From the NCBI GenBank assembly GCA_946699065.1, contig CAMPDV010000019.1, forward strand, positions 1,116,001 to 1,180,000: a stretch of 64,000 nucleotides of DNA. The letters are read 5' to 3'. The notes beneath the pieces were generated by a model. The model had not been told where the DNA came from. It did not search any database and saw only the letters and a list, made by a program, of their open reading frames with translations. The position numbers and the translations under genes are program-made. Origin of the DNA: Loxodes magnus (Eukaryota; Ciliophora; Karyorelictea; Loxodida; Loxodidae). This document shows positions 1 through 64,000 of the stretch, one piece after another (the stretch's first letter is position 1; each line of letters opens with the position of its first letter).

Positions 1-2415
1 ACTCCAATAATAAATCCTAATTATAATAAGAAGCTTTAAGAGATGGATAAAGTAGACCCACATGAAGGAATAGACTCCAAAAACTTAGATTACAAGAGAT
101 ATGTTGATATATGCAAGTAAAATTTACTATTTTAGTACAAGGCATTGAAACGAACTTAAAGTTGACTATGCAAAAAGATAATTTTGACTCGATGCAGTTT
201 TCAAGAAATTTGCTTAAGGAGTCTTAGATGATGAAGCATGGCTACGATAGAATGATTTTATTTCATTTTGTAGACTGGTAAGTTTATAATTAAATTAGTC
301 AGGCTTGATAAAAGACGACCATGATAAGAATACAATGATTACAATGTATGTAAAGCTAACAAATAGGAATTATTAAGGGTAACTGATTGAATTTAACTTC
401 AATAGAAAAATGTTTCACACTGATTTCCTTAAAAATGTCTCCAGCTTAATGTATCCAGATATCCATTTTTCTATAGCTATACAGAAGTTAATAATGGAAG
501 TTATTTACCCAAGGTTAATAAATAATTTCCCTTAGTTAGCTGATGAAAGCGAGTATGTAAAAGATATAGCTCAAGTAGTAGATCCTTCAATAATGTAGCA
601 TCAAGGGTTACCAACTGCTTATATTGAATCAATCTAAAACTAACCTACTTAAAAAGAACCATAGCAACCTATTAAATAAAAAAGACCTTAAACTCCTACT
701 GATATGGTTATATATTTTGAAGAAGAAGAAAAATAAATCTTAAAAGCAATTCCAGTAGATGATACCTTTAAAAAAGATGATTAGTTTTATAAAGCTTTCA
801 TAATGAAAGATATTGATTTAAAAAAAGAAGAAACTACTTAACTAAACTAGAACATTAATATGAATGAAAAGGAAAAAGAAAAGCTGGAAAAGCAATAATG
901 AGTAGACAAGCAAATAAAAAATGAATCTAAATAAGACCTCAAAGAACTATCATGCTGCTAGAAGCTTAAAAGAAAACTTCTTTTATGTTGGTTAAGTAAA
1001 GTTTAGTATAATTTATATAAGATGAAATAGAATATCATTCTTTAAAAAAATTATGGCTTTGAAGATGAAGTTGCTTCTCCACGATCTTCTTTTACAATAG
1101 ATACAGAAGAAATGGAAGTTTTTGAATTAGATAAAGTAAGTGACAAGATTTTTAAAAAAATAGAAAAACTATTAGAAAAAATGAAAAATAAGCAAACTTA
1201 AGATTTGAAAATGAACTGAAATTCTACTAATATTATGGCATTAGTATCTCAAGTTAGCTTCTTTTATAGTACATGTGCCTTGGCTTTTTCTGATTAAGTT
1301 GGATGGCCTTATTCAGAAACTTAAGCGTAGGCTACAAATATTTTATTAGTCAAAATTAACTATTGGAAATACTTATATTACATAAGCTGGGGCTGTGCTT
1401 TAATCTACTTGTGATTAGCTAAAGTTGCATTTAAATATGCAAGAGAGTAAAAATTAGGATGGGTAAGATTATTATACAGGACGATTAGAAGGGTAAAAAA
1501 GCAGGACTTTTGCATAGACAGTATTGGCTTCAACAAGGAGTAAACATATTTGGAAATACTTTGTATTTATAAATTTTAAAAACTATGCTAGCCTCCTGAT
1601 CTTGTAACTTTGAAACAGAGCCTTTTCAATTATATTAAGACAGTGACATTCAATGCTTTACAAACACTCATATGCTTTATGCAATCTTAGGACTTTTATG
1701 CATCGTTATTTATTATCCTGTTGCTACTTTTATGTATCCGAACTTACAGTTTGGTAATAAAGCTCTTGATATTAAATTTAATCCTGATTTTATGATATAC
1801 TAGAACTAAGGTAAGCTAATAATAGCTGGAGTAGCTACTTTCTTCCCTGAATAGGATTAATTGGGAATGTAATTGGCAAGCTCAGCCTTTGTTTCACTAA
1901 TAATGGCATTAATCAGCTTAAAGTCAGACACTTGCTTATTAGCTAAAATCAATAAATGGATTATTTGTGGATACTCCGTTGCCTTTTGGTGTTGCATTTG
2001 CGCATTTTTCAAATGGTACTTTCCAGGAAAGCTAGATGATTTGCTGCTGCTTATAATACTATATGTAGTAGGTGCAAGTATGATTCTGATAACTCTGCTG
2101 TATTAGCTAATTAAAGAAGAAAAAATACATTAAAAGATAAGAAACTGCTGTAAAAAGGGATAAGTTGCTGAACAACCAAAAATCTTATAGTAAAACTCTT
2201 TGAAGCTAGAGAATTAAGAGAAGCACAAAACCTAGTAAAGAGTAATCAAGTCTGTATTACTAGATACCAAAGATAATCTTATAAATAATGAAGAATTGAA
2301 GCAAGAAGCTTCAAGTGCTATGCAAAAAACCTCCTCAAGATTCGATAGATATGATCTGAAAATTGAAGACATTAATGAAGAAGATAAAGAACACGAACTG
2401 CTAATGAAAGATTGA
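1..2415 (+). CDS. Large polytopic membrane protein, 3' part (5' cut by window edge)
   Basis: The gene is open at the left edge in frame 1 and ends at TGA 2413-2415. Removing a 19-nt intron (117-135) and a 17-nt intron (1463-1479) leaves 793 codons. The visible part has a soluble region (with VDYAKRQF), a charged Lys/Gln-rich linker, then about five membrane segments between roughly 1220 and 2105, including VAFWCCIC, and a charged tail. In-frame TGA codons, for example 899-901 and 1597-1599, are needed to keep the frame, and homologous positions carry Trp. The closest relative is the inverted full-length gene at 24869-31660; long blocks are nearly identical at DNA level, so the copies are recent. 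The family is not one I recognise; transport or sensing would be a guess. Confidence 0.85.
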
Positions 2416-2833
2416 AAATAAACTTACAAATTAATAAATATCAATAAAATCATATTATTCATATCTATTCAAACTCGTCCTTACTTTAGCAATCATTCAG
2501 TTATATTTAACATCAACTTAAATAAAAGTCTCAGAGTAATAAATTTAAAGGCTTATTAATGAAAACTTAATAAAGAGCCTCTATAATTAAATATAGTATA
2601 ATCTGAACTATTTAACTAAATGATTAACTTAAAGGAATTTAAATATTAATACTTTAAACTAATTTAACTTTGCTGGGAATTAATACTTACAAAACTTGAT
2701 AATACATAAATAGGAAAAAGCATTAATATTAAAAGACTTAAGAAAGTAGAAGCAAGAGATTAAGATATATTATAAGACTTGATTTCTTTAGGATTCTAAT
2801 AAATTGATTAGTTATTTAAATTCCTCTTTGAAT

Positions 2834-7734: not shown

Positions 7735-8262
7735 ATGTAGAGTTGCTATAATTGTAGAGAATAAGGCCACTTTGCCAGAGAGTGTCCTAAAGCTGGAATG
7801 TAGCTGTGTTTTAATTGTTAGTAGGAAGGACATATCGCAAGAGATTGCCCATAAGGTATTATATGTCATCTCTGTAAATAAACAGGACATTTAGCAAGGG
7901 AATGCACTGAAATAAATGAATAGTAATATTCTGGCGGTGGTGGTGGCAGAGGATACAGTTAGAAATGCTTTATATGTAACTAGGCTGGACATTTTGCACG
8001 AGATTGTCCATAGAATTAATAAGAAGAATAATATGGAGGATAATATAAAAACGAAGCTTGCTATAATTGTGGAAAAACTGGGCATTTTGCTAGAGATTGC
8101 AAAGATGAAAGCAGCGGAAAAAATCAAAGTGGAGTAGAGTGCTATAATTGCGGAGAAGTAGGACACTTTTCAAGAAATTGTCCTAATAAAGAAGGTGGTG
8201 GTGAAACTAGATGCTTTAAATGTAATGATTGCGGACACTTCGCACGGGATTGCCCCAATTGA
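7735..8262 (+). CDS. CCHC zinc-knuckle nucleic-acid-binding protein, CNBP/ZNF9 type
   Basis: The ORF runs from ATG 7735 to TGA 8260-8262, 175 residues. It contains seven retroviral-type zinc knuckles, each C-x2-C-x4-H-x4-C, for example CYNCREQGHFAREC and [14 protein letters not shown], separated by short Gly/Gln/Asn linkers. Seven knuckles is the classical number in CNBP/Gis2 proteins. These bind single-stranded G-rich RNA or DNA and act in translation and mRNA handling. Many linker positions are TAA/TAG, so the gene is invisible under the standard code and gives only shadow ORFs. The stop directly follows the last knuckle, which fixes TGA as a terminator here. There is no signal or membrane segment; it is expected in cytoplasm or nucleus. 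Confidence 0.95.
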
Positions 8263-12213: not shown

Positions 12214-12217
12214 TAAA

Positions 12218-13355: not shown

Positions 13356-13985
13356 TCAATTAGTTTGACACTGAATGCATTTATAAATTGATATATTATC
13401 TACTTCCTACTATGTTAAATTCAGACATTTCCAATGAAACCATTTCTAACAGGCATCACATTGGATATAGCTTAAATCGGGGTTGCTTGGCTGCTGACAT
13501 ATGCATATTTTGGTCCATTATTCTAGATCAGGAATTAGCTTCAGATTGATATTATCTCATATAGCTCTATAATAATAAACTTCATTAAGATCTTCCATAT
13601 TTTCATACACCTCTAGAGGAACAACTTTAATTTTCCCATTAAGACTGTGTGCACTTACTTCTTATTCATGATACGAATCGAATAGCTCTTTTTACCCAAG
13701 GAATTCATAATTAAGTTAAACATCTTTCATTGTATACCACCAACTCACAGTTACCATAGGACAGTCAGTTTAGAAAATTTCAAGGATTCTACAAAAACCA
13801 AAATCTTCCCCTTCCAGCTTAATTATGGCATCATCTCCGATCTTATAAATAACTTAAGCAATTTTAATCTTCTTATAGGTTCTTTTTACAGTTTATTCCT
13901 AAGCTAAATTTATTTTCTATCTTTTAACAAGGGAATTCTATTTCTTCTCCTCTTAACTTTCAGTTGAAGAGTGTGCTCTTTTCAT
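13356..13985 (-). CDS. BAH-PHD chromatin reader, 209 residues
   Basis: The ORF runs from ATG at 13985 down to TGA at 13358-13356, 209 residues. Residues 1-40 are basic and nuclear-signal-like (VKRQKIN, VKRTYKK). Residues about 41-150 form a BAH domain (YKIGDDAIIKL, CRILEIF, VSWWYTMKDV, DSYHEQEVSAHSLNGKI, YYYRAIWDN). Residues 161-206 form a C4HC3 PHD finger with C161, C163, C176, C179, H184, C187, C203 and C206; the stop follows three residues later. BAH-PHD proteins read histone marks, often H3K4 or H3K27 methylation, in silencing or activating complexes. TGA encodes Trp in YYYRAIWDN. The protein is nearly the minimal two-domain unit, much shorter than plant or animal relatives such as SHL/EBS. 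Confidence 0.92.
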
Positions 13986-14053
13986 AGTTTAATGTATAAT
14001 TTAAGCTTTAAATTAGTAATTAAAATCATTGGATATAACTTACTCTTTTATAT

Positions 14054-15684: not shown

Positions 15685-17822
15685 TCAGTCTTTAGCCTCC
15701 TCACTCCTTAGATCTTTGGGAAGAAACGAATTAAAAATTTCCGGTACTTCACTATCCATATCCTTTAAAACCTTTAAATCCTCAGGATAAAAATAATACT
15801 CTTCTTTAGCAAGAGTAGTCGACATATAGCCTTTGTCATCTGTAACCTCTTTTACAACCTCAATAAAAGGTGGAATTTAAATATCTAGACTTTTTTTATC
15901 TGATTGAATTTTAAGCAAAGTAATAGGTGTATCTAAGTTAATATAGGAATCTAATTAAAAGGATACTTAATTCCATATGAAGAACTATTTCATACGTTTT
16001 AGTATTTTTCTACCTCTCTCCTTCTGTTGACTTAATTGTAGGTATTCCTAAGGGGCAATTATGTTCTTAGTTTCTAGTTTTTATCCATCTTTAATCTAAA
16101 TTTAATGTCTATAGTATATGTACCTCTAAAACTACCCTCTCTTTCTTACTTTAACTACTTCGTTCTCAGTAACCTTTAAGTAAACATCGTCCACTTGAAT
16201 TCTCTCGGAATGAATATCTTCAGGTAAGATATATCATAAATTTTGAGGTTAAGGAGATACCAAAAACTTTTTAAAGAAAGAAGGAGGATTTCCAAGCCCA
16301 AGAGCATAAGTGACAACTTTTAAGCATTCATGCATTTTATCTTCAAAAGTGATATTATTTTCGTTTGTTATGATAGTGAAATTTGGATGGCCAGTGTATG
16401 CTTTTTATATGGTTTTATCGAGATATATAGCTTATTTAATATCTTTCTAAAATAGAATATTACCTCATATCTAGCTGTATTACTTTCACTTGAAAAAAAT
16501 TAAGGCGCTCCATCAGCAGCTGTCACAAGATGAACCACATGATCATATCTCTTATCTCTTAGTTATACGACACTCCAACCCAAATCATCAAGTAAAGCTT
16601 GCCATGCTTTTCTACTTACATAAGCACTACCATCCATAGTACCCCTATCACACAAAATTACTTTATTCGTTCCAGCTTAAGATTAGGCCATTTCTGTAAA
16701 AATATCTTCTAAAGCTATTTGAATTCTTATAAGGTTTATCTAAAACCTAACTTGCTATGCTATTGTTTGATGACTGATATCTAAATTTATTCCTCCTTTA
16801 AATAATAAAGTAGCTGCTTCAGGAACGTTAAAAACTCTCCATCCGCTTTCAGAAAGCTTTTCAGAAACATGCTAAACTGCAGTAGTTTTTCCGGCACATG
16901 GTCCGCCAGTAAGGCAAATTTTGGATATTTATTATCTTTAAGGGCCATAGTTATAAGATTATTAAGTAGGTACACTAAATGACTACTAGGCTAATTTAGA
17001 AAATGTTGTTGAAGATTCGTCAAGCAAATGTTCAATAGAACTAGCTCTTGGTCGCTTCTACTCTTGGACTATTTGGACTATTGGTTCCTTTTTCTACTAA
17101 ACCTACTTTGATTTTTTATTTTCAATAATCAAATAAATAATAAGTCCGAAATACAGAGCCATCATTACAGGTCCATAAAGAATTTCCTGCCAGCCTTCCA
17201 TATTTGCAGAATATATGGAAAGTACAATGAAAGGATTACAATGAAAGCCATTTAAATGAATAGAATTAGTTAATTTAAAGCAATTGAATTGGTAATTCTT
17301 CTTCTCTTTAATTAAGTTAACTTTGTTACTATTTACTGTTATATTTATGAGGCAAAATTAAAACAAACTTCCTTTGGTTAAAAGCTTCATTGAGTCTCCT
17401 AAAAATAAACTAAAAACGTCATTTGATGTAAACTATGGATCGCCTAAAACGATAAGCTCTACCTAGAATGAACTAAGGACTAGATGTACCTCTCCTATGA
17501 GTTTTAATGCTAATAGTGTTATAACTAGGAATAGATAAATTGTCAACTTGAAGTAGTTTTCTGAAAAAAAAGTGAAGTGAGAAAGGTTTAAAAGCAAGTG
17601 TATAAATACATAGCAATAGATTCTAGAAAAGCTTTGATTGATAGATGCTAAAATGTCCAAAAAACCTGAAATTTAGCATATCAAAGTTGCCTTTAGATGC
17701 TTGTAGTATCTGGCATAGTAAGCTCTTATTTCAGATAAGATAGTTTGTATGAGTAGGTTTTGACTAGGATTATGGAAATCTTGTGGAAGGCAATTTGAAC
17801 TACTAAAGAGAGACTCCCTCAT
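15685..17822 (-). CDS. TTD14-like P-loop/CYTH-like protein with membrane N-terminus
   Basis: ATG at 17822, TGA at 15687-15685 and one 17-nt intron (16447-16463) give exactly 706 residues. Residues about 50-110 and 205-235 contain hydrophobic segments (YLFLVITLLALKLI, MMALYFGLIIYLII). A disordered linker follows, then a P-loop GGPCAGKTT near residue 302 and the motif ILCDRGTMDGSAY. The C-terminal 220 residues include RKRGQFRGTY and resemble the CYTH-like domain of TTD14. Family members are nucleotide-binding proteins; Drosophila TTD14 binds GTP and phosphoinositide and directs TRPL channel traffic. TTD14 proteins are normally soluble, so the membrane part is unusual. An alternative in-frame ATG at 17201 would keep one membrane segment. 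Its first 50 bp overlap the head-to-head gene at 17772. Confidence 0.87.
16447..16463 (-). other. 17-nt spliceosomal intron
   Basis: On the minus strand the segment reads gtaatattctattttag. Removing it joins NTARYE to KDIKQA in one frame and makes the whole TTD14-like ORF close from ATG to TGA. Length, GT...AG ends and a TATTTTAG 3' end match the other introns in the window. Confidence 0.88.
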
Positions 17823-18806
17823 TAGCTAATTAAGGAAATAGAACTGCATACTTAACTCCTATTGGACACTACTTAAGATGTTCCATACTTCCTACTAATA
17901 GACCTTTTAGAGTCTTATATAGAATACTAGAAGCAAATTAAAATCGATTAAACCTTGCACTCTAAAGAAAGGCTTGAAGAACTACAGAACTAATTATCTT
18001 CCAAAAATTTTCAAATCTTAAAACTAGAAAACCAGATACAAGAGCTATTGGAAAAGCCTTAGAAGGAACAGCAAAAGATAAAAGAACTACAAGCTCAAAT
18101 TTGCGAGCAGATTAAAGTAATAAACTAGTTAAATTAAAGGGTAGAAGACTAGTAACTCAAGATAAGAGAGATTGATTAGCTTGACTAGCTAGAGCAAAAA
18201 ATTAGCTAACAAGAAAAAGATTTAAAACTGAAGTAACTTTAAATAGATAACCTGAATAAGATTATTTCAGAAATGGAAGACGAAAATGCTTATTAGAAGA
18301 AGATAAGCTTGCAGATATAAGAACTGTACCAAAACGCTGTTATTAAACTAACTTAGAATACTAATTTCGTTTAGGAAATGAAAATTAAAATAGAACAGTT
18401 AGAAGATGAAAATAAGTCTCTTTTCATTAGAGCTGCGGCAAGTTTTGATGATATGACGCCAAGACCTGATTGAAGAGTGGGATTTAAGCAAATGAAAACT
18501 TTTCCTTAACCTGAATAAAACTTTACAAGTAAACAGATGTGGGATTATGTAACAACCAATATAACCAAAGTATTATAGGATTTCAACATTACCGAAAAGT
18601 ACTTTAAGCAAGTTAAGAAAGACAAAGTTAATTTAATGAAGCAAAAAAGCGAATTGAAATTGAGTATAACTAAAGAAAATTAGCCACCTAAAAACGAAGC
18701 AAGCGATTAAATTTAGGAAGCTAAAAACGACTCATCTTAAGAGATAAAAACAAACAGTTCCTTTTTGTTAAATAAGAAGATGAAAACATCAAATTTCAAT
18801 ACTTGA
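17772..18806 (+). CDS. Coiled-coil protein, possible TSNAXIP1-like, with internal TGA
   Basis: The frame from ATG 17772 to TGA 18804-18806 gives 344 residues. Residues 1-60 are helical (DVPYFLLIDLLESYIEYQKQ), 60-215 are a long coiled coil rich in Glu/Gln/Leu, then DDMTPRPDW and a Lys/Gln-rich C-terminus. An in-frame TGA at 18471-18473 could be the end (233 residues), but read as Trp it gives TPRPDW and the frame continues as good coding sequence through an ATG at 18492. The helix plus coiled coil plus TPRP-W pattern is reminiscent of TSNAXIP1-type ciliary proteins; this is a tentative match from memory. The first 50 bp overlap the opposite-strand TTD14-like gene. Confidence 0.72.
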
Positions 18807-24371: not shown

Positions 24372-24437
24372 TTCTTATTAATGAAGTATATTATTTCAAT
24401 TATTTAATCATGCAAAACTTAGAAGAAAGTACACTTT

Positions 24438-34533: not shown

Positions 34534-35946
34534 TCAAGCTAATTTGATAGTTTCAAGTCTCAAATAAGCTTACTCAAACAATTAAAATCTTGACTAATAT
34601 ATAAAAAGCACCACTTAAAGTACCAGAATGATATAAAGATACTAATTACTAAACTCTTTTAATAAGGCAGCTATGGCCATTTAGTAATTGAACTGATTAA
34701 TTGAAGAACCATAAGACAATTAAATATTTTTGGAATGTTTCATCACTTTATCACAATTTTTTAATATTAAAACTGCTATTATACAAGCATGCACTGCTAT
34801 ATATATAACGTAGCTCATTACTATATATAAATCGAATTGCCAGTATTTATACTCTTTTACTTCCTGCAAATTTAAAAAATTCTTTTCGCTTAGGTTTAAG
34901 TTTTGATACTCATAAATGAGATATGAATCTGTTCTTTCTCATTCTGAAGGAGTTGGAAATTAGCTAAGATAGAATAATTATTGTATATAGCTTGTCTATT
35001 CTCCTCCTTACTTTTTATCGTCATTTAAACAGGCAAGTTTCGGTTAATAAGTATAGATCCTGTGAAAATCCTTCACATTGCTTCAAAAGTCTTAGTCAAT
35101 CATTTGAAAACCATACTTCACTTCTAAAGGACTTAGTCTCATTTCAACTTTATCAGGATATTTTAGCAGCATATAATTATAAAATAAGCTAACCAACTAA
35201 GGACTTTACAACGAATCTCTAAATTTAGCTTTTCTGGATGCCTCAAAAATATCCTGAAACTCCATTTCCAGTTCTGTGATATAATGCTTATTCAATACAT
35301 AAACAGAATGCCAAGGGATATAAAACTATCAGTCTTTGTTATAACTTTCTTTTCCCTTTTTTGTATTTCCAAGATATTCATTTAGCAAATTATTTCCATA
35401 ATGATAGGCATAAAGAACATCTCCACTCTCTTCATTGTTTATACTGAACAACTTCTTTTCAAATCTCAATATTAGCTTCCCATCATTCATTATAAAGTCT
35501 TAGATATTAACATTTCTTGAGAAAAAGAAGTCGTCATTGAAATAAAGAAAATTGTCAGAAATATTTTAAATCTTATGCAGGTTGAATTCAATAGCACGTG
35601 AACTAAATATAGGCAAATCTGATGAGTTTGGATAAAATTAATCATGTCTAATTGGTATAATTTAAGGATGGGAAATATTCAATCAATTTGGAATCTGACC
35701 ATTGGTTATTAAATATATATTGTTAATTCAAGAAGCATAGACTGATACACTTCTCAGCGAAAATAAAAGCTCGTTGTTATCCCAAAATCTATGCTTCGGG
35801 AAAATTTTTTTAAACTTCAGAAAACTAGCTATAAAGCTAGATTCACTTCCATTTACTCACTGATAAACAATATCAATCTTCTAAGAATTAACCCTTACAG
35901 TAATTATAATCCTTAGCAATAATCAAAAGATAGATGAATATCTCAT
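34534..35946 (-). CDS. Stealth-family sugar-phosphate transferase, GNPTAB-like
   Basis: ATG at 35946, TGA at 34536-34534, 470 residues. An N-terminal signal anchor (residues 6-18) is followed by Stealth conserved region 1 (IDIVYQWVNGSE, 24-35) and region 2 (DNNELLFSLRSVS, NIYLITNGQIPNW, LPIFSSRAIEFNLHKI, FLYFNDDFF, about 56-142). Region 3 contains DWQFYIPWHSVYVL and RDSLQSPQLVSLF, then region 4 and two C-terminal membrane segments. Stealth enzymes transfer sugar-1-phosphate from nucleotide sugars; GNPTAB makes the mannose-6-phosphate tag in the Golgi. Three family-conserved Trp positions (QWVNG, YASWINN, IPNWLN) are TGA here. A Golgi role in glycan phosphorylation is inferred. The second membrane segment is not typical. 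Confidence 0.92.
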
Positions 35947-36035
35947 TTATTCCTTTACTATTTATTTATATGCTAGTATATTTAAACCTTTGATACTTTA
36001 ATTTATCAAATTTTCTACCCAAGCCTGCTAGTTTT

Positions 36036-36770: not shown

Positions 36771-37078
36771 AATATAATTAAGTCTTATATAAGAAAAAAG
36801 TAAATCAGTTAGAGAACTTTATTTAAATGCTTATTTTAGTTATATTAGCATAAGAAAATACAACTAAGGAATAGTAAGGATAAGTTATAATCCTAAAGGA
36901 GTAAAAATAGGATAAATGGTTATTAGAGTGAATAGTACTTTAGGTAGAGCATTTGGAATAGATTGAAGTATAGTGATAGTGAAAGAGATAGGAATAATAA
37001 TGATTGTGTAGCACTCTATAGATATAGGTATTTTAATTAATTGGTTTTTACTTTTAGAGAATAAATTATTGATTAAAA

Positions 37079-43000: not shown

Positions 43001-46000
43001 TACACTCAGAATTAGTAAGTAATATAATAAAATTAATTACTAACATAGCAAGCTAAACTACCTTCATAAAGTGCCACTTATCAACCATCTCCCACTAAGG
43101 GATCAACCTCTGGAAAATAACAGGAGGACTTATAAAGTTAACTTTCAATAGCTTTAGGAGTAAAATAAGAACTTCAGTAATAACTACAAGTAGCAATAGA
43201 AAAGTACAACACTGAGAAATTTAAGCAAGACCAGTTTTAAAAGAAATTGGATAAGTATACCGACAAAATCTAATCTTTAGAAAACGAAAATAAAGATTTA
43301 ATAAAGCTAAACTCAGAAGCTGGAACTTAAAAGTTTAAGCTAGAATAACAATTATAGCAGCTACTGTAAAAAATAGAACACAAAGAAAATATAATTTAGA
43401 ATTAGCAGGATAAACTCAATGAGTTCTAGGAAGAAATTGAGGATTCTAAAAGTAAGATTAAAGAAATTTAAAGCTCTAGAGGAAAGTAGAATAAATCGGT
43501 ACATTAAGAGAACGAAGAAGATTCTGATCAATAAATTTTCGATAACTAAGATTTGCAAGAAGAGTTTAATAACGCTTAATCAATAATATAAACACTATAA
43601 AGCTAGATCAATATATTAAGAGAGGATTTAGCTTAGAAGGAAGAAGAAAATTATGATTTACAATAAGAAATTAATTATCAATAGGAGGAGGTGGAAACTT
43701 TAAAACAGTAATTGGATAACTTGAGAATAAGCGACGAGAACTAAATAAAATAAAAGCTAAAAGCTTCTTAAGATTTATATAGATAAACAGTGAGTTAATT
43801 AGAGGAACTACAACAAGTAAAAAATGAGCATGAAGAATTAATTAAAGAACTTCAAGAATAGATAAAGAGATAAAAAGTCAATGTAGATACAGAAGAATCA
43901 GCTAGACAAACTTTAATAGAAATTTCTAAAATGAGAGAAGAAAACGATGCTTTGAAAAGAGGTTTGAAGCAGTAATTAAAAGAAAATGTACTACATGAGC
44001 AAAACATAATTTAGCTCCAATAAGCTGTAATATAAAAAGATCAAATGAGCCCCTAGTTTTTCAATGAATTTAACAAAATGAAGTAAACAAACAAAGAACT
44101 AGAATTAAAAGTGCTAGAACTAATGGACCAGAAGTAAAGAGTTCAAGAATTGATGGATTATATACAATAGATACATGAGATCTTGAAACTTGAAAGCGTA
44201 GAAAATGAATAAATTGGATTAATCACTTAACTAGAAATTATGCTTAAAGAAATAACTGAAAAATGCTCTTAAATGGCAAGTTAAACTGAAAGACTGGAAA
44301 ACATGACAAAGGATAATTTGAGTGGCAGTTTATCAAGTAGAATTAAGCAGCTAGTACAGGCTTATAATGGATAACTTAAACGTAAATCAATCGAACAAAA
44401 AAGCCAAAAACCAGAAAAATCTAAGTAATAAGATAAATAATTTGAAGATCTATAAAAGAAGTATAATGACTTGTAGCTTGATAATCAGATATTAAAAGCT
44501 GAGCTGAAAGAAACCTAAGAAGAGTTAAAAGAGTTCCACTAATTGATTTCATCAAGGCCTGATAAAGAGTATAATGAACGATCCTAAGTTGCTGATCTTA
44601 AACTAGAGATTTACGAGTTAAATAATCAAGTAAAGTAGAAAGACGAATAATTTAAGATGCTAAGTGAAGATTTTGTTAGAATTGAAATTAAGAAGGAATA
44701 GATGGAAGAAATGGCACGACTTCTCTAGGAGCATGTACAAATTAGAAAATAACTTGAGCAAAAGATAATTAAACTAGAAGAACAGCTCAAGGACGAAAAG
44801 AATATTTTCACCAATTTGGAAAATATACTTTAGTAAAAAACCCTGTAAATAGAAAAATTAACTGACGAAAAGGAAGAACTTTTGAGTAAGTTAAATTATA
44901 TAAAATCACAAACTCCTAGATCTTAACTGAAGGAAGAGCTTGAAAAAATGAGTACTCATTGTCTAAAACTACAGAAGGAACTAAAAAAGGCAGAATTAAT
45001 TTAAAAATAGTACTAAGAATTAAAATAAATGAACTTAATGCTAGAAGAAAAGACTAAGTTCCTACTAACACAATTGAAAGAAAGAGACGCTGCAACTTCA
45101 ACAGAACTACTAGAACTTTCACAGGCACATAAGAATGATAAGGAAAAATTTACGGATATCTTGTCAGATGCTGAAAGTAAGATTTTAGGTCTATCAGAGT
45201 AAAAAGAGACTTTAAACGAGTAGATTTCGATTTTATAGTAATAGTATGATAATGATACCTATACTTTGTAGACTAACCTTAGAGATGTATAAGAATAGTT
45301 GCATAAAGTTCAAAAGGAAAAAGAGCAATTCTAGAATAAAGTTCAAGAGCTTAATAATGAAATAGAGTAAATGTATACAAATGGCAGAAAACAACAGGAA
45401 GAGTCAAGCTAGAGAGAAAAATAATCGCCTTTCTAGACTTAAAGCGATAAAAATCAGATGCAAAATACTTTTGGAAGTTCAATTCACTAAACTAACGAAC
45501 AAAATTTCTTTGAAATGTCTAATGAAGATCTATATGAGTTTTCTCCTAAAATAGAGAAGGAAAAATCTTTTAATGAAAGCTTAAATAATATTCTCTCAGA
45601 TAAATCAATTAAATCAGATTAAGTATATTAGATATGTAAAAGAGTTAGATTTTAAGATACTATCTGATGCTTAGTAAAATTGGATGAAGATAGATTAGAC
45701 TGGTGGATTTAGTAAGACTTAATAGCTTTTGAAAGTTAAAGAGGCAACGATATAAATCCAGAAGAATTTATCATTATAGAAGATAAGTTAGCTGATGAGA
45801 TTAAAGAAATGAAGGATTTTATTTAAAATCTGTTACAAAGCTATGCATAAAGCTAATTTAAACGAGATCAAAATCTATTAAGTTAATTACAGAACTTGAT
45901 TTTACAATTAACTCAGTAGCTTCAATAATAATCCTCCAAAAATACTTCCAAAACTATATAGTCTGCTAAAAATGTATCGGTTTAGGCTAGTATAGATTTT

Positions 46001-46688
46001 GCGTCTGCTGGGTCAGACAATCAAGCTGTAGCATTCGCAGCTATGATAGGAAAAGGATTAACAGATAGAATGGAAGAAAATTCTTTTGATATAGGTATGC
46101 ATAATGACCCAGAATAAAGTCTATTTGAAGCAAGTTCATAAGATGTTTAATAAATGTCTGCAAAATAGCAAAAAGTATAAATTAAGTAATCAGTTGCCAA
46201 AATTGAAAAGACTAAAAATGAGGTAGCAACGTAAACATAGGCTGAAGAAAATGAAATGCAAGATAAACTGGACAACTCAACAATAGAATAAAATGAACAA
46301 ATTTATAAATTACTAGCAAATAATAAAAAATTGAAATCAGATTTAGATAAGGCAGAGCAAGAATAACAACTTACTTAAAATTAAGTAATTCTTTAATACA
46401 GTTAAAATTAGTAACTGAGGAAATGAAGGAGTTAGACAGAAAATATTAAAGATCCATTATGTAAAATGAAGCTTAAGCAGTAGAGCATTTAAAAGAAGTA
46501 TTTTCGAAGTTAATCAAACTTATTCCACCTCTGTAAGTTAATTTAAAATATTCAGAGCAAAAGAAATAGAAGCTTTAATCTAGCTAATTTATTCAATGCT
46601 GTATTTTTCTCCTTCTGAAAAATAAGAAATAGAAAGTGAAAGAAAATCTAATATAAAGAATAAAAAGAAACATCTTTTTAAACTGTGA
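37079..46688 (+). CDS. Giant golgin with C-terminal GRIP domain, 3189 residues
   Basis: ATG 37079, TGA 46686-46688, introns 46385-46401 (17 nt) and 46533-46555 (23 nt); the spliced ORF is exactly 3190 codons. Residues 1-200 are Pro/Gln/Ser-rich and disordered. Nearly everything up to about residue 2780 is coiled coil rich in Glu, Lys, Gln and Leu. The last about 60 residues form a GRIP domain (HLKEVFSKLIKLIPPL, EALIQLIYSMLYFSPSEKQEI) plus a basic tail. GRIP domains bind Arl1-GTP and place long tethers on the trans-Golgi. The position usually Tyr at the start of GRIP appears to be His. In-frame TGA at 39533 and 45665 must be Trp (LLWENEF, TIWCLVKL). Most golgins are 700-2300 residues, so this one is very long. 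Confidence 0.93.
46385..46401 (+). other. 17-nt intron in golgin gene
   Basis: Sequence gtaattctttaatacag. Removing it shifts the frame into the GRIP-domain frame (KLVTEEMKELDRKY), and the full gene then closes exactly in frame. Confidence 0.9.
46533..46555 (+). other. 23-nt intron inside the GRIP domain
   Basis: It begins gtaagttaat and ends tattcag. Its removal joins KLIKLIPPL to AKEIEALIQLI, restoring a complete GRIP domain and the reading frame to TGA 46686. Confidence 0.9.
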
Positions 46689-48525: not shown

Positions 48526-50085
48526 TCATTCTATATCTTTCATTAGCTCTTCTTCTATTAACTACGAAACCGGTTTCTATTCTATAATTAAGAAAGCTTG
48601 CCACTCTTTTTCGGAAATTTCTGACTTAACGCTTTCGTATTTACTTATTAGACTAATTCCTTTTTACACGATCATTTATCAGAACTCAGAATGTTATCCC
48701 ACTGAGAATATTTTTATTCTGTTTTACATGAAATCGTTAAACCATAGAGCTTAATCTTCATATACACATACTTTTCTCAAAACTTCTAGTCATTCAAGTG
48801 CTTATGGATAGAAATTTTCTAGAAAAGTGTATTTCACTCTTAAAATAATTAAGTTACCAAACTACTAAACAGCATCAGAAACTCTATCAGTAGTTCTATC
48901 ATTTAAAAGTGTATTAAAATCCTCAATAGCATTATCAAATCTGATGCTTGTATTCAAAACAGTAGCAGGCTCTTACTCTTTTTCTACTAAATTTTCAAAT
49001 GGCTCTTCCTTTATTTCCGTCTAGAAAGTAAATACTTTTTGTTAAAGTTAATTATCTTAAAGAAGGAATATTTCTTATAGTTCTTGAGTATTAATCTTTT
49101 TAACTAGCTTTTCATCTGGACAAACTTATTTAAAAATATTAGGATCAGGCTCTGGAATTCCTTGCTGATTCAAGCTTTTATACTCTAAACATTAGTAAAA
49201 GTATTACAATACAGGATTAAAAGTAGTCTTCACTTATAGAAGTTCGCCTTCTTCTGGATCTTCTTAATCTAGATCCATTGCATCTATCATCTTATCTATG
49301 GCTTCTTATTACTTTTTTGTAGATTCTTAAAGAGATCTGAAAGATAGATTTTTAATATCTCAGGAAGTAGGTAGCTGATTCATATAAAAGCACATATATT
49401 TAGAGTGAATATAGGGAATAAGGCAAACTAATTTAGGAGCTTAATTATCTCTATAAGTTAATCTTCCTATTATGTAAACATCTTTTTCTTAGCAAGCTAC
49501 TACCATAGCATTAAAGGCTTTATTGTTGTTTTAGTTGTTGCTTTAGGGGAAAACAATATCAACTCCAGATAAGAATAAGTCACGATTTATATGTTGCTTA
49601 TCTAAAAATCCCATAAATAAAAACTCTTTAGAAAATTTGAATTGCAAAGACTTTTAATCAGTTTCAGATACAGGAACCAACCAATTTCCATAATAATACG
49701 CTTTTGTTAATTAGTCTTTGTCTAATTTCTCTCTCTATAGATCGTCTCATTTAGCATAGAAACGTTTCATACCAACTTTTCCACTTGTAATTTCCTCGCT
49801 AAACTCCACTAGTTTACTATATTTACCAAGTAAAGGTAATTTTTCTTCCTCTACTTTCGAATAAATTTCGACAGATAGTTTTAATTAAGTACCAAAATCA
49901 ATAGTTCCTTTAAATTTGTAAACAGGATTGTATATCCTTTTTTTAAAGCTTTTATAGGATTAAAATTCAAACTCATTTCATTTTTAACCTTCATCAGCTT
50001 CTCCTTTTTATTCATTAAGGAGAGCCTAGTTTGATTTTTTATTTTAGCTAAGTTTTTTGCCTTTGTCTTTAGCTTACTCCTACAT
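48526..50085 (-). CDS. Ku80 core-domain protein, no recognisable vWA domain
   Basis: ATG at 50085, TGA at 48528-48526, 519 residues. After a 40-residue basic low-complexity start comes the Ku beta-barrel/core: NPVYKFKGTIDFGTQLKLSV, RFYAKWDDL, YYYGNWLVPVSE, FSKEFLFMGFLD, PKLVCLIPYI and FYMNQLPTSWDI. The helical arm with FNPVLQYFYQCLEYKSL and a C-terminal helical region follow. Ku70/80 rings bind DNA ends in non-homologous end joining and, in some ciliates, in genome rearrangement. The usual about 240-residue N-terminal vWA domain is not encoded here or evident upstream; in-frame sequence before the ATG reads KLKRLLALILINSTILAV, signal-like rather than vWA. At least four in-frame TGA act as Trp. 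Confidence 0.9.
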
Positions 50086-50671: not shown

Positions 50672-52047
50672 TACTAAAGTTATTTCTTCTTTTATCTTTA
50701 AATTTAAAGTTTTTAAGGGTTTGAGTTGACCAAAAAATAATCTGGCTATAAATGATTTCTTTATAATTAACTTAGTCAGTCTCCTATAATTCTGGAAAGA
50801 ATATGATATAACTATTTTAAATTATTTTGCTAATTTAAATGAAGGCATTTAATATAGTTAAATATTAAATAACTTCAAACTAGCTTAAAAACCATAATCT
50901 AGCATCAAAATGTATGATTCTTTATATCAAATAGAAAATAATCTATTTCTTAAAGCAAGCTTTGGCAATTAGTCTATGATCATTTTAAAGAAAATATTTA
51001 AACTTGAAGGTTCGAATAAATAGTTAGATTCTTATGAAAGAGAAGTAACTATTAAGTATAGAACTATCAACTGAGTGTAAATAAGATCTTGCTAGTTTAA
51101 AATCCTATTGTATAGACTAATTCTCAATTGTCACTGTCATAGAAAGATTTTTTGTGCTATTCTCTTTATTGTGGTGAATAATGAATAAAAAGACATTATA
51201 GCTAGATTTAGTTAGGTAAATTTTCTTAATTTAATAGAGTTAATTATCTATAGCTAGAAAAGATTTGCTCACTTAACATTAATAATTTTTCTTGCAAGAG
51301 TTGATAAAATAAATTGAAGGAAGGTTTTATAGCAGTCTCTTATTGAAACAGAAAGACATTCTGCATTTTATTAATTGTCCATAGCTTTTATATTTTATTC
51401 TGTTTTTAAGCTTTATTTCTAAATTTAAAATTAATTAAATTGGAGACCTTTGCTAGTGCAAAAGTTACACTAGTGATAAATGTAAACTAAATGGTTTTAT
51501 TTGAAATAACTTTATTTGGCTACTAATAAATTATAAGGTTTATTAATTTTAATCTTCTATAAATTAAAATCTTCAGCAAGGCTACTTTAATTAAGCTTCT
51601 GATATAGATTTACTTTATAACAGAATCTGATCATAAAGGAAAATGCTAAATGTATTTTGATTTTATTAATTTTTATATTAATAAATCTAATAACATCTAT
51701 TTACTCTAATTATCATTATGCTCCTTAAGTGTCTATTAGCTAAGCTTTTCCTCTTTACTTTTCTATATTAATGCATTCAGAAAATCACTAATTATATTTA
51801 ACTAAAACATAAAGTTAATATTTATTCACCTGATATATTTTTACATTAGATTTGGAAAAGTAAGTGTAGATTGATAAGTTTAATGGGTAAAAGGCATTTA
51901 TAAAATGGGAGTAATAAGAATTTAATATAAAAGAAATATAGAAATATGTTGTAATAAATGTATCAATAAATCTGTTAAAGTCTATTTCAATCAATAATTA
52001 CAATATAATTTCCTTTAAATGCGCTCTATCAATTTATCTTTATAAAA
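50672..52047. other. A+T-rich region without recognised gene
   Basis: About 1.4 kb of very A+T-rich sequence upstream of the first SGNH-family gene. Frames on both strands show TGA at about the chance rate and no family signature. I looked for the missing Ku80 vWA domain here and saw none. Confidence 0.45.
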
Positions 52048-53652
52048 ATGAGTTACAGTCAAACCTTAAGCTTTGATATAAAGAGCGAAAGAGACATTAG
52101 GAATCTTAGTGACATTTCTTTAGAAATTAAAGACAATTAAGGAAGATGACACAAAATCTAAACCTCTTAATACAGTTAGATTTCCATTATCACTGTAATA
52201 GAAAATAATTATGTTCATGCGGGCTTTATTGCGGAAAATAAATGGAACGTAGACAGAAAAATTTATAACTACATGCTTATTCACTGCTAACCTTTAAATA
52301 GTTAATTGTGCTTTCAAGTTAAATTTTATCAAGAATAGAACGAATATATTGAGTAATTTTAAAAAATATTAGGAACTGGATAAGTTTGGTAATCTTAATC
52401 TGAGACTTGCTCATGTTCATTAATCGTTTTATCGACGATAGCTGAGCAAATTAGTGGCAACAATTTCGAAATACTAAAGATTGAAAATCTACTCAATTAA
52501 GAGGCTTTAAGTAGCAGAAACTTAAACTGTTTAAAATTCATCGTATAAGTCTCAAAGATAATCAACTATCCTTTTGATCTTTCAAAATGAATATAAAATA
52601 TTTAAATGAAATAGTAGCAAACGCTTAAAAATAGTAATATATAAAAAACTTATCTAGAAAGAGAAAACTAAAGCGATTATTACAATCGTTCGAATGAAAA
52701 ATCCATTCAAAATTTTTAATTACAAGAGTCATTATACAATAATCTATTTAACTCTAAGAAATAAACTATTAGCTTTCCGTATAATTAATCTGAATAAATA
52801 CGAAACTATAATATATAGAATATTCAAAAAAATAATAAATTTTAATATTAAGAAAACTAAAATAATCATCAATAATAACTCGTTTTGATTGGAGACTCTA
52901 CTATTGATAACATCGCATGGGTTAAGAAAGCAAAATGATCTATACCCTCACTTATTAAAGATAAATTACCTTAGTTTTAAGTTATCAACTATGCTGTAGA
53001 TGGATTCACTAGTTAAGATGTTATAAATGGAAATAATCTTATCATTTCTAAATAGACTCGTTGAGCTTAAGGAAATCTCTTTCCTAACGAATAATTTTTC
53101 TAACCACTGAAAGAGCTTCAAAAATTGTAAAATGTAAAGTATATTATACTAAGTATAGGTGGAAATGATATCCGAGAAATTCTAGGAAAGATACATCTTT
53201 TACCTTAAAGATTGATGTAATTGAAGAAGAACTATCGATAAATTTTAAATCAATGCTATTAAAAATATACTAATTTAATTGTGATGCTATAATATAGACC
53301 AAGTTTCTATGATGACTAATATTATGGTGTATATAAAGCGATGGAGTAAACTTCCTTTGATGGAAATAGTATTGATAAAATAAATTACTTGATAGAAAGT
53401 ATTTACAGGGAGTTTTTCGAAGAGTTCAGAAGAAAGAAAGTAGCAATAGTAGATTTACCTAATTCCTTTGATATTTTCGATTCTGATTTATATACTAAAC
53501 AGATTGAACCGAGTTATAAAGGAGGCTAAATAATAGCAAAATTAATCGAACATATAGTTAAATATGGTGATTTTAGTAGATCATAAATCTACAGTGTTGC
53601 AAATGAAAATGGAGAAGTTTGCGTAAAAGAAAATAAGGCTAATTTTAAGTGA
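52048..53652 (+). CDS. SGNH/GDSL hydrolase-like protein, copy A
   Basis: ATG 52048 to TGA 53650-53652, 534 residues, four internal TGA read as Trp. Residues 1-120 form a mixed alpha/beta domain (SIITVIENNYVHAGFIAEN), possibly PH/EVH1-like. A Gln/Asn-rich linker leads to an SGNH fold: block I VLIGDSTIDN (nucleophile Ser), block III LSIGGNDIRE (Asn), and the region normally carrying Asp-x-x-His reads KQIEPSYKGGQIIA, where both catalytic partners appear absent. SGNH enzymes are esterases, lipases or acetyl-hydrolases; this copy may be inactive or use other residues. The same frame continues without a break beyond the TGA into copy B, so the TGA may be read through as Trp. Confidence 0.8.
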
Positions 53653-54609
53653 AAAATAAAAAACAATAACTAATACAATAAATAATAAAATAAAGAGTTT
53701 AATATTTTACACGTTAAAAGAAATGATATTTTAAGTCCTTCATTACAAGATGAATAATAAAGATAGCTATCTAGCTCATAGAAAAGCTCCAATAAAGTTT
53801 CGGTTAATGAATTTGATCACTAAAATAATCGTAAATGCCACAATTCTTAAGATATTCAAAAAAATAATATCTAATAATCTTAAAAAAACTAAAATAATTC
53901 TTAATAATAACTCTCTTAAGCTGGGGACTTAATTATTGATAAAATCGTATGGGTCAAATAAACAAAGTGGTCCATTCCTTAATTTATTAAAAATGTATTA
54001 CCTTGGCTTTAAGAAATCAATTTAGCTTAATAAGGATTAATTATTTAATATTTCTAATAGTCACTAATGGAAATTTAAAATCTTTAAAATGTTAACTATA
54101 TTCTACTAAGCATAGATGTGAATGATATTCAAGAAAATATAAGAAGCGAGTATCTTTTACCTTAAATATTGAATTAATTGAAGAATAACTATATCTAAAT
54201 TTTAAACTAATGCTATAAGAAAACTACTAATTTGATTGTGATGTTATAGTATTTACCAAGTTTTTACAACAACTAATATCATGGTGGAAATTAAACGACG
54301 GGGTAAATCCCTTTAGGTTGGAATGACATTTATAAAATAAATTGCTTGATAGAAAAATTTTACAGTGAGCTTTTCGAAGAGTTCAGAAGAAAGAAAGTAG
54401 CAATAGTAGATTTACCTAATTCCTTTGATATTTTCGATTCTGATTTATATACTAAACAGATTGAACCGAGTTATAAAGGAGGTTAAGTAATAGCAAAATT
54501 AATCGAACATATAGTTAAATATGGTGATTTTAGTAGATCATAAATCTACAGTGTTGCAAATGAAAATGGAGAAGTTTGCGTAAAAGAAAATAAGGCTAAT
54601 TTTAAGTGA
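53653..54609 (+). pseudogene. SGNH-family tandem copy B (no start; diverged or second domain)
   Basis: It is in the same frame as copy A after TGA 53650 and ends at TGA 54607-54609. The linker and SGNH part match copy A (IQKNN, then AGDLIIDKIVW in place of GDST, and SIDVNDIQE in place of GGND), so the nucleophile Ser and the Asn block are lost. From about 54340 to 54609 it is nearly identical at DNA level to copy A, including the terminal TGA, a sign of gene conversion or recent duplication. No in-frame ATG was found. It is either a dead tandem copy or the second half of an A-B fusion protein. Reading on past 54609 gives a Gln/Asn/Arg-rich tail to TGA 54757-54759. Confidence 0.7.
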
Positions 54610-56347
54610 AGAATAGAAAATTTTAATAAGAATGTGATGGAGAACTAAAAGTAATAATAACCAGAGAAAAATGTAAATTCGGCAACATATGTAGAAGACA
54701 ATCGAAAGAGGCAAAGAAATGGATAGACCGGATGTAAAGTTAATGGATATCGTTAGTGAACTTTTAAAAAAATTTAGTTTTTCAGCTTTAAAATATCTTA
54801 TTATTTTTAATTATATATGAAAGAGTTAAAGATTAGTGTATATATGGATATAAGAATTATTATTACTACTTGCTAACATTTAATATACCTTTATTATGTT
54901 CTCTCTAATGATAATTTCCATAATAATCTCACAAAATATATTCTTGAATCATCTTTTTCTTTACAAATCAAAATCATATACATTTAAAAAATTTCCGAAT
55001 TATAAACTTTACATCTTTACAATTATACAGATTATAATCGCTATAAAATATCCATTAAAAATTTTTTTTTTATGAAAAGTCTTTGAAGAAAAGAAGTTGC
55101 ATAAATGATAGAATGATGGATGAAATCTTAATGATATCATAATAAGCCCTATTGCTTGAATCAAGGATTGAAAATAAGACAATTAGAATGAATATTAATT
55201 GTAGTGTGATAGTTTAAGACTCTATTATGCGACAGTAACAAGATAAAACCAACTATATACATTTCTCTAATTTAAAGTCTTAGCGTCTATTCAGTTATAA
55301 ATAAATCTCATAAAATTACAACAGTATGAGAATCAAAGCAAAATAAAATGAATCGAATCAACTCAAATAAAATTTAGCCTAAGGATTTACTAAAAAGTTT
55401 ATACCATTAAACCAAATCAATCCAGCTTACATTAATTTATTTCAGCATTCTAGTATGAGTAAATTAATAATATCTTTCAATATTAGTTAATGTGAGGAAA
55501 ATTAGTTCCGAAATTAAACAAAAACAAGAAAAATATAAAAAATAAATTAAAGCTGATTTATCAAGAAAAAATAAAATTCAAGCGAAGAAAAAATATAAAG
55601 TAAAATATAGAAAATAGCATATAACTAATTAAACTTAAACATTATCTAGCAAAAGATAATTAATACAGTTATGCTATCATGAATCTTATAAACATAAACT
55701 CTTGAAACATATATACAAAAGAAGAAAATCAAAGTTTTATGTAAATGTTTACAAAGAATATTATTAAAGTTGCAGCAATAATTTTAAACAATATAAATTA
55801 TTAAAACATTAAGAAGGCAGTTTAAGAAAATTCCTAAATTTTCTTAATTAAAGTCTTTACTTATTCGTCTAGAATAAAGAATCTTAGATTAAATAGATTA
55901 CCTTCTAAATTTAATTCGTAATTTTTTGTGAAAAAAAAAGTTATTCTAACTGGAATTTACCTATATATTTAATATAAAAGAAAGATGGTTGATTGATAAT
56001 TTAATAACTCTTGCATTTAACATATATGAAATTTTAGTAGTTTTGGACATGTCTAAAAAATATTTAATGTGATTTACTATAGATCTAAAGAGAGGTATGT
56101 TTCTTAGAATTCACGAACATTAAGTTTGCTTACAACTAAACTTAGAAAAATTAGAGATTTATTATAATAACATAACAATTTTCTTACTAAAGATCAAGAA
56201 GGTTAAAAAATTAATTCATAAATTATCAAAATAATCTGCAGCACAAAATTTGCTTGATTTTTTATTTTCATTCTATTCAGGATATTTAGAATTTATATCC
56301 TCTTATTATCCCTTCAACCCAACATCCATTTTAAAATTTTAAATTCT
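54610..56347. other. A+T-rich spacer between SGNH copies
   Basis: After a short Gln-rich in-frame tail to 54759, the rest is A+T-rich with no recognised coding pattern. It separates the tandem + strand pair from the inverted copy C. Confidence 0.45.
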
Positions 56348-57961
56348 TCATTAAAAGGTAATCTTATTTTCTTTTACGCAAACTTCTCCGTTTTCATTTG
56401 CAACACTGTAAACGTATGACTTACTAAAATCACCATATTTAACTATATGTTCGATTAATTTTGCTATTATTTAACCTCCTTTATAACTCGGTTCAATCTG
56501 TTTAATATATAAATCAGAATCGAAAATATCAAAGGAATTAGGTAAATCTACTATTGCTACTTTCTTTCTTCTGAACTCTTCGAAAAACTCCCTGTAAATA
56601 CTTTCTATCAAGTAATTTATTTTATCAATACTATTTCCATCAAAAGAAGTTTACTCCATCGCTTTATATACACCATAACATTAGTCATCTTTAAAACTTG
56701 GTCGATACTATAACATCACAATTAAATTAGTAGTTTTCTCGTAGCATTAGTTTAAAATTTATCGATAGTTCTTCTTCAATTACATCAATCTTTAAGGTAA
56801 AAGATTCATTCTTACTAGAATTTCTCGAATATCATTTCCACCTATACTTAGTATAATATACTTTACATTTTACAATTTTTGAAGCTCTTTCAGTGGTTAG
56901 AAAAATTATTCGTTAGGAAAGGGATCTCCTTAATTTCTACGAGCCACTTTGGAAATGATAGGATTATTTCCATTTATAACATCTTGACTAGTGAATCCAT
57001 CTGCAGCATAGTTGATAACTTAAAACTAAGGTAATTTATCTTTAATAAGTGAGGGAATAGATAATTAAGCTTATTTAACCCATGCGATGTTATCAATAGT
57101 AGAGTCTCCAATCAAAACTAGTTATTATTGATGATTAGTTTAGTTTTTTTGGGATTATTAGATATTAGTCTTTTGAACATTTTAAGAATCGCTATAAATT
57201 TTTACAAACGGTTTTTCAGGCTTTATAGGTTGAGCGCTAGTTGAGCATTTCTAAGAATTTTATTGAAAGTTGCTTAATGTTTTTAATTGAAAATTATTTG
57301 AGATTTTTTAATTAGCTTGATGATGCTAATTCTTAGTTTAATTTTCTCTTTTTGGTTAAAGTAAAAGTGTCTCTTTATTTTAAACTACAGCTCTCCATCG
57401 CTTTATTACCTAATTTTTCCAATCTGATAGAGAGAATTGATTGTTAAGTAACTCATTTACAAGTTAAATAAATTTGAAGTAGTTAAAATAAGTACTTCTA
57501 GTTGTCTCTTAGATTTCTAGTTCTTAAATATATAGATTTTAAAAAGTTTTCCCACAAACTTGCTTTGCTATTTTTGAAAAAAAAGAATCTGGTTTTTAAC
57601 AGAATTTTAATTTTGTTTACCAATTAGTTTCTGCTGCTGTAGCTTCTTTAAATTTCTAAATACAGATTTTCTCATTTTGACATAGTTCCAATTAAATTGC
57701 TGCTTTATTATTACTTGGGATAAGTTAAATAAGCATATAATTGTAATTTACATTACTTACATTTCATTAGTTTTTTGCAATTAAAGCAGCATATACAGTG
57801 TTATTTTCTATTGCAGTGATAAGGTAAAATTAGCTAGTCTAATTAGTTTAGATTCTTCTTAATATACTATTTTAGTGTTTAGCATCTATAGAATATAAAT
57901 CTTCTTTTTTGATATCTTCTGCAGAATAAATTTTGAAAAGTAAGGATTAAGTGGCTTTCAT
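56348..57961 (-). CDS. SGNH/GDSL hydrolase-like protein, inverted copy C
   Basis: ATG at 57961, TGA at 56350-56348, 537 residues, same architecture as copy A: N-terminal alpha/beta domain (YLITAIENNTVYAALIAKN), a longer Gln/Asn/Lys linker, then an SGNH domain with VLIGDSTIDN and LSIGGNDIRE. The C-terminal block again reads KQIEPSYKGGQIIA. The SGNH half is almost identical to copy A; the N-terminal domains have diverged, so the halves evolve at different rates. Codon 66 is TGA here and TGG in copy A, both within N-x-WNV. It lies in inverted orientation about 1.7 kb from copy B. Confidence 0.8.
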
Positions 57962-63245: not shown

Positions 63246-63718
63246 AGCTTATTCTTTGCTTATAGATACTTTCAATTAGAAACATTTTATAGCTTTAATA
63301 AAATTCATTATACAACTGTATTTTAGAAACCTTAGCTCTTCTGCTGCCTAATCATTAAAACAAGGGCTGAATAACTATCACCTTAAGAAAATACAATTAA
63401 AATTAGCATTTTATGTGCCTTTCTTCGAAGAATAATAGTTATTAGCACTTTAAAGAATAAAATTCTTTGATATTTAAAATTTTATAAACTTTAAAGAGTG
63501 TAGAATATAGCATATAGCAACCATGAAAGATATCAAAACTTTTTATCTTCATAGCTTTTGTAAAAGACTTTGCATCAATTCTTCGCTTTTAAATACTAAG
63601 TACTTTTGAAAATTAAGATATTTAAAATGCAAGAGTTCATTTTGACTCATTCAAATAAAGCTTCTATAATAAATCATCCGTGCAATCCCAGTCCTTACTT
63701 TCGCTATTTCTTTCTATT

Positions 63719-64000
63719 ATGCTTTAAAATTTATTTGTCATTTCGGTCATTCAATTCTAAGGAACGTTATAGTTAATCAGTTTCGTTGCTTTATAGACAA
63801 ATTTTATGCAATTTGTATGAGAATTTTTAGATGCATCTTACATAGACAAGGTCTTATAAGGCTGGCAATTGAAAGGCTATCCACAAATACTTTTTGCAAT
63901 TCCAGAGCAAACTGACATTGGAGAATAATTTGATTAATACTCTGTTTAGAAGATATCTGGGCTTGTCACATAACGCTTAAGTTCATTATGGCATTAAACC
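63719..64000 (+). CDS. 5' part of unknown gene, cut by window end
   Basis: From ATG 63719 one frame stays open to the end of the window with a single TGA read as Trp. The later part (YIDKVLQGWQLKGYPQILFA, IPEQTDIGEQF) looks coding, with clearly higher G+C than its surroundings. The start is uncertain and too little is visible to name a family. Confidence 0.4.

Follow-up and report, generated by a model that had tools for sequence, protein, structure and literature searches.

The window, a stretch of 64,000 nucleotides within the 705,730,643 bases and 7843 contigs of the Loxodes magnus assembly, is almost certainly written in the karyorelict code (NCBI table 27), in which UAA and UAG stand for Gln, UGA inside genes for Trp and UGA at 3′-ends for stop, with tRNA and eRF1 parts as proposed below. 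A preliminary description had proposed this code from the letters of the window, and the proposal is supported by TGA behaving like TGG inside papain genes, by TGA at C-termini, by tRNA genes for both UAA and UAG, and by the use of table 27 in PMC11441545. The code itself is already published for the genus, table 27 being stated for the L. magnus macronuclear assembly in the text available of that paper, so the window adds a further example rather than a discovery. All codon evidence was drawn from genomic DNA.

Under the standard code no frame of at least 150 codons was present on either strand of the 64-kb window, which bears out the earlier explanation of why a standard search for open reading frames fails here; with TGA as the sole stop, the longest frame reached 1464 codons. 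Readings in table 27 recovered the Pfam families of dynamin, Ku80, Stealth, BAH, PHD, GDSL, AAA_28 and kelch (Table 1), in agreement with the claim that the dynamin, Ku80, Stealth and BAH-PHD genes become legible only with TAA and TAG as Gln. The Pfam scan covered 33 chosen readings; the frames were picked by a codon-likelihood model trained on the first open frames, which the coiled-coil gene swamped and which served for this choice alone. The tRNA scan and the Rfam family scan of the window gave no matches.

Table 1. Frames read in the window with TAA and TAG as Gln and internal TGA as Trp
Feature	Positions	Strand	Observations
CNBP-like gene	7735..8262	+	7 zinc knuckles of CCHC type; 175 aa if counted from a putative start ATG; TGA end 8260-8262
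BAH + PHD exon frame	13400..13997	-	Pfam BAH 1.1e-6, PHD 2.5e-6; internal TGA 13559
AAA_28-domain frame	15990..18266	-	Pfam 2.6e-16; bounded by TGA 15990-15992
Dynamin frame	22416..24395	-	Pfam Dynamin_M 3.7e-76, Dynamin_N 9e-49, GED 1.6e-23; TGA end 22416-22418
Kelch-repeat frame	33600..34500	-	Kelch families of Pfam (up to 1e-16); adjoins Stealth on its downstream side; TGAs 34395 and 33882 in the interior
Stealth protein frame, CR1-CR4	34830..36030	-	Pfam Stealth_CR2 4.6e-37, far over cut-off; CR1, CR3 and CR4 slightly under theirs
Golgin-like coiled-coil frame	37073..46426	+	3117 codons; TGA end 46424-46426
Ku80, C-terminal part	48526..49950	-	Pfam Ku 7.9e-32, Ku_PK_bind 1.5e-23; stop TGA 48526-48528
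Tandem GDSL-lipase-like domains	51799..54750	+	Pfam; TGAs 52936, 53650, 54607
Third GDSL-lipase-like copy	56220..57901	-	Pfam; TGA 56350

TAA and TAG were found as sense codons throughout these frames. The CNBP-like gene holds 16 of them against a single CAA/CAG and has no internal TGA; likewise, the dynamin frame, with its first ATG at 24371, carries 28 in-frame TAA/TAG and no internal TGA, and 23 TAA plus 22 TAG lie in the interior of the AAA_28 frame. The golgin-like gene runs through four successive TGA-bounded frames in one reading frame and comprises 351 TAA/TAG, 179 CAA/CAG and 5 TGG; it contains only three internal TGAs (39533, 41273 and 45665), against the 58 that base composition alone would give and the 53 and 121 counted in the strand's two remaining frames, and a Pfam search of the golgin-like frame returned no match. 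Among the domain assignments, the BAH match (29 bits) is slightly below its cut-off of 30.8 and PHD is above its own, while for Ku80 the Ku and Ku_PK_bind domains exceed their cut-offs and Ku_C falls under.

The meaning of internal TGA was then read from alignment columns, every TAA, TAG and TGA being masked as X before the residues of the homologues were read (38 homologues for Stealth, 5 for Ku80). In the alignment of the table 27 translation of Stealth to its family, the TGAs at 35859, 35730 and 35685 faced Trp in 34/36, 31/38 and 36/38 homologues, respectively, and the chance of all three of these Trp columns being TGA, given 7 TGAs in 400 codons, is P = 3.3e-6. The TGA at 34941 faces mostly aromatic residues (F 19, Y 11 and W 3 of 37), and those at 35331, 35085 and 35925 lie in unconserved columns, the last being upstream of CR1. 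A further TGA, at 34534-34536, could be either the end of Stealth or Trp, because 42 bases beyond it, and in frame with it, there is an ATG belonging to the kelch frame.

Ku80 gave a mixed result. Its TGA at 48681 corresponds to Trp in human Ku80 and in the one homologue covering it, and that at 48792 faces Cys in one of one homologue; the TGAs at 49749 (His 3, Asn 2) and 49362 (Glu in 5/5 homologues) are real misses of Trp columns. As a TGG of the same Ku80 also stands at a Ser column (5/5), Trp outside Trp columns is not peculiar to TGA, and this Ku80 has gained Trp at unusual places. Hence the earlier expectation that internal TGAs would coincide with Trp in homologues held for the three Stealth positions and for Ku80 48681, failed at Ku80 49362 and 49749, which are clearly non-Trp columns, and found nothing to act on in dynamin and CNBP. 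Among the GDSL-lipase-like copies, the TGA at 52936 is matched by TGG (53968) in the second tandem copy and by TTA in the third copy; the TGAs at 53650 and 54607 occupy the matching place in both tandem copies, with 56350 as their equivalent in the third.

A broader measure was obtained from the papain family (PF00112) of the same genome, for which 154 matches were found in 150 scored of 331 candidates. Fifty loci were used, namely the 30 best and 20 chosen ones, 16 of the latter for holding TGA; 39 were distinct and 26 remained below 85% identity. With a conserved column defined as one in which at least half of no fewer than eight other sequences agree, 25 of the 42 TGAs in the 26 representatives could be judged and 17 lay in columns too variable for this: 21 of the 25 were at Trp, two at Gly and one each at Ala and Asp. 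TGG itself was at Trp in 93 of 109 conserved cells, and conserved cells other than TGG were at Trp columns in just 35 of 3201, yielding a hypergeometric P of 3.9e-41 for the enrichment of TGA. The reading of UGA as Cys, known from Euplotes, is without support, as 0/25 conserved-column papain TGAs stood at a Cys column. The share of TGA among Trp codons varied between papain genes from 0/9 to 7/7 (permutation p < 1e-4), from which no claim is made because 16 of the 20 chosen loci had been selected for holding TGA.

The same columns fit TAA and TAG as Gln in a soft and not decisive manner. TAA was at Q in 15 and at E in 13 of 57 conserved cells, CAA at Q in 12 and E in 4 of 33, and TAG at K in 7, Q in 6 and R in 5 of 28. 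Since this signal is soft, the assignment to Gln leans on the tRNA genes and on the eRF1 record of Loxodes striatus. A Gln-type tRNA pattern matched 340 times in the genome and its reversed control not once, and the anticodons among the about 100 matches listed were TTG, TTA, CTA and TTT. ARAGORN called tRNAs with TTA (L099, L103), CTA (L100), TTG (L101) and TTT (L102), and Rfam scored L099, L100 and L101 as tRNA.

For tRNA-Trp, the pattern matched 128 places in the genome (control: 0), about 9 of these 128 lying outside the matches listed, and two large arrays were present. On contig C67, 47 exact copies, plus one from which a base is missing, extend over 482293-491213 at a spacing of about 187, and on C148, 66 minus-strand copies and one plus-strand copy are spaced by 241. 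At least 115 copies in the two arrays all bear CCA and a 4-bp anticodon stem in which the 27-43 pair is broken, as A27.C43 on C67 and U27.C43 on C148 in our reading of the sequence; Rfam marks a non-standard pair in one C67 copy. Copies with all five pairs were located at C110:362484 and C110:470077, with a diverged third at C110:422958, and a match on C7736 was discarded because ARAGORN did not call it a tRNA. Tandem arrangement as such was dropped as a special feature of tRNA-Trp, tRNA-Lys(UUU) being arrayed too. The portions available of PMC13092985 and PMC12005148 name Swart et al., eLife 2024, as the source for the short-stem tRNA-Trp of Loxodes, and in those of PMC13092985 the reading of UGA by short-stem tRNA-Trp is demonstrated in other species. 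An improbable alternative is that UGA is read by a cognate tRNA-Trp(UCA), either nuclear or imported from the mitochondrion: no UCA form that fitted the body pattern with zero mismatches was seen among 126 matches, of which the 100 listed were all CCA, a search that a diverged body could escape, and the tRNA-Trp(CCA) copies of the arrays carry the very 27-43 mismatch known from UGA decoders.

The eRF1 gene occurs in two copies on contig C196, neither with an internal TGA. Its best protein match is labelled Loxodes striatus, to which the copies are identical at 415/436 and 431/436 positions, and this places the genome among the karyorelicts. Substitutions were numbered by alignment to human eRF1, with residue numbers checked against the positions named in the Blastocrithidia literature. 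Both copies and the L. striatus protein show E55A, T58R, S60Q, S70A, L123F, Y125F, D128E and K130T relative to human, with GTS, NIKS and C127 retained. Among the 118 other top matches, E55 and Y125 were present in 118/118 and S60 in 116/118, and site 70 was S in 116 and A in two (P0047 and P0063); as the comparison comprises the best 120 of 7988 matches, largely animals and metagenome proteins, it says little on S70A across ciliates, and the eRF1 of Blepharisma stoltei, a ciliate that reads UGA as Trp, has S70A as well. The Q60 codon is TAA in both copies and is read as Q in the L. striatus record, so that an eRF1 stopping at UAA would truncate its own synthesis.

That TGA also terminates was evident from gene ends. 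The first in-frame TGA came within four codons past the papain domain in 38 of 45 loci (8/15 chosen and 30/30 best; the set comprises 15 of the 20 chosen loci and all 30 best, many of the latter being near copies of each other), and at 7-51 codons in the remaining seven; in the 30 best loci it was always codon 2 after the domain, following Leu or Ile. Four papain genes (L040, L041, L044 and L045) contain 1, 3, 7 and 7 internal TGAs, yet have their terminal TGA 2-3 codons beyond the domain, and thus use one codon as sense and as stop in a single gene. Both eRF1 copies have TGA directly after ...DPDEDFL, the exact end of the L. striatus record. Of the genes named in the preliminary description, all given there as ending at TGA, such an end was seen for the CNBP-like, dynamin, golgin-like and Ku80 genes.

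These ends bear on the very improbable possibility that UGA is wholly Trp and that another codon, such as UAA, stops some messages in the manner of Condylostoma or Blastocrithidia. A minority use of UAA as stop in karyorelicts was reportedly noted by Seah in 2022, and no gene forced to end at TAA or TAG was seen among a few dozen ends, many of them near copies. In the related Condylostoma all three codons serve as stops, according to the text available of PMC4967479; against a similar usage here stand the papain ends and the TGA ends of eRF1, CNBP, dynamin and Ku80. Less probable still is a code like table 6, with UGA always stop and the internal TGAs being introns, sequencing errors or pseudogenes, to which the lack of internal TGA in dynamin, CNBP and both eRF1 copies, the few internal TGAs at non-Trp columns and the decayed look of the weaker papain matches L050 and L055 could be counted, but random stops or decay would not select the Trp columns occupied by most of the judged papain TGAs, the three Stealth TGAs lie within unbroken motifs that stay in frame before and after each TGA, published introns avoid 3n lengths (in the part available of PMC11441545), and TGA stands opposite TGG between tandem GDSL paralogues.

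Under the karyorelict code, UAA and UAG would be read as Gln by the Gln-type tRNAs whose anticodons are UUA and CUA, the genes of which were seen, and internal UGA most likely by the tRNA-Trp(CCA) without the top anticodon-stem pair 27-43, as judged from decoding in other species. The changes at E55, T58, S60, S70 and Y125 predict an eRF1 that would ignore UAA and UAG and compete weakly at internal UGA. What makes a UGA a stop may be its closeness to the 3′-end and poly(A), following the model of Swart 2016, in which a codon near the poly(A) end is pushed towards stop (stated in the text available of PMC4967479); in L. magnus the median 3′-UTR is 41 bases and coding UGA is depleted over the final ~20 codons of genes, ahead of the stop, as given in the part available of PMC11441545. 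It is conceivable, if somewhat less probable than its opposite, that nearly the whole nuclear tRNA-Trp pool of Loxodes is unpinned and UGA-reading, held in two homogeneous arrays (48 + 67 copies) with perhaps almost no UGG-only tRNA-Trp, and that this pool is paired with an eRF1 changed at five sites with a known role in stop recognition, S70A among them, UGA then being sense by default and termination wholly a matter of 3′-end context.

Compared with known systems, the code is no different from that of table 27, as described for Loxodes and Parduczia with UAA/UAG as Gln and UGA as Trp inside genes and stop at ends, and what is added here are tRNA gene dosage and eRF1 residues. Tetrahymena and Paramecium (table 6) likewise read UAA/UAG as Gln, but UGA is known there only as a stop, unlike in Loxodes. 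In Condylostoma magnum, whose code is NCBI table 28, all three codons can stop, whereas only TGA was seen at ends in the Loxodes window and the genes examined. The two are alike in the context-dependent use of stop and sense and in a tRNA-Trp(CCA) with a 4-bp stem; no tRNA-Trp(UCA) was found in C. magnum, as far as the portions available of PMC4967479 and PMC13092985 state, nor in Loxodes with zero mismatches among the 126 pattern matches. Blastocrithidia nonstop is alike in reading UGA as Trp via a short-stem tRNA-Trp(CCA) together with a change of eRF1 Ser70 (S70G there, S70A here), and differs in that UAR is Glu and UAA the stop. No report of the array dosage of Loxodes tRNA-Trp or of S70A in Loxodes eRF1 was found in the literature, of which parts were available, and this is weak evidence of absence; the words tRNA and eRF1 do not occur in the main text of PMC11441545.

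The karyorelict code accounts for the failure of standard gene finding in this genome stretch, and genomic sequence alone shows one codon as both sense and stop within single genes. For the question of how UGA as Trp is told apart from UGA as stop, the dosage of tRNA genes and the altered residues of eRF1 are concrete components that lend themselves to experiment.

Among the 128 matches of the Trp-pattern search, tRNA-Trp(CCA) genes with a broken 27-43 pair, and so a 4-bp anticodon stem, were found in two homogeneous tandem arrays in the genome. The form with the 5-bp stem was represented by only two clean copies and one diverged copy, all on contig C110, among the matches listed, which comprise all but about nine of the 128. 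One 5-bp copy lies near a tRNA-Met(CAU) gene with a nearly identical body, the anticodon arm excepted, and one tRNA of this pair has apparently been converted into another. Evenly spaced tandem arrays were not confined to tRNA-Trp, as tRNA-Lys(UUU) is arrayed likewise; these Lys arrays came from the initial tRNA search, in which 63 of 42,786 candidates were scored. In addition, a Gln-type tRNA body carrying the anticodon TTT (Lys) recurs on two contigs, and could be either a pseudogene or a tRNA of altered identity.

Coordinates of the tRNA and release-factor features
Feature	Location	Remarks
tRNA-Trp(CCA) array	L083-L084 (G000:C67:482293-491213)	48 copies, spacing ~187 bases
tRNA-Trp(CCA) array	L085-L087 (G000:C148:155434-173067)	67 copies, spacing ~241 bases
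tRNA-Met(CAU)	L039:711-783 (C110)	near 5-bp tRNA-Trp at L039:1486-1558
Gln-type tRNA body, anticodon TTT	L102 (C397:14870-14980)	similar places on C397 and C1529
tRNA-Lys(UUU) array	G000:C103:669738-672972	spacing 527 bases; single copy checked
tRNA-Lys(UUU) array	C158:171420-182004	spacing 1752 bases; single copy checked
Candidate tRNA-Lys(UUU) array	C78:681122-688206	spacing 1753; equal score
eRF1 genes (two)	L061:1456-2766; L062:1456-2766	contig C196
Third PF03463 match	L060 (G000:C2:1762690-1763037)	besides the two eRF1 genes

Among genes of the papain-family loci L009-L038 and L040-L059, a sample partly selected for bearing TGA, the TGA share of Trp codons per gene ranged from 0/9 to 7/7, and in this sample was lower at higher GC (Spearman -0.58).

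Within the window, a single reading frame is common to the Stealth and kelch domains at 34494-34536 (-), where a TGA is followed 42 bases on by an ATG; the sequence alone is compatible with one fused gene and with two genes. Three GDSL paralogues carry a TGA at an equivalent place (53650 (+), 54607 (+) and 56350 (-)), followed by K/R-I-x-N, and since DNA identity among them drops roughly at this codon, it may be either a stop or a conserved Trp.

The third PF03463 match, by visual inspection, belongs to a pelota-type protein, and one in-frame TGA lies downstream of it. Both eRF1 copies carry E55A, T58R, S60Q, S70A, L123F and Y125F (human numbering), with Q60 encoded by TAA in each, so that an eRF1 stopping at UAA would truncate its own chain.
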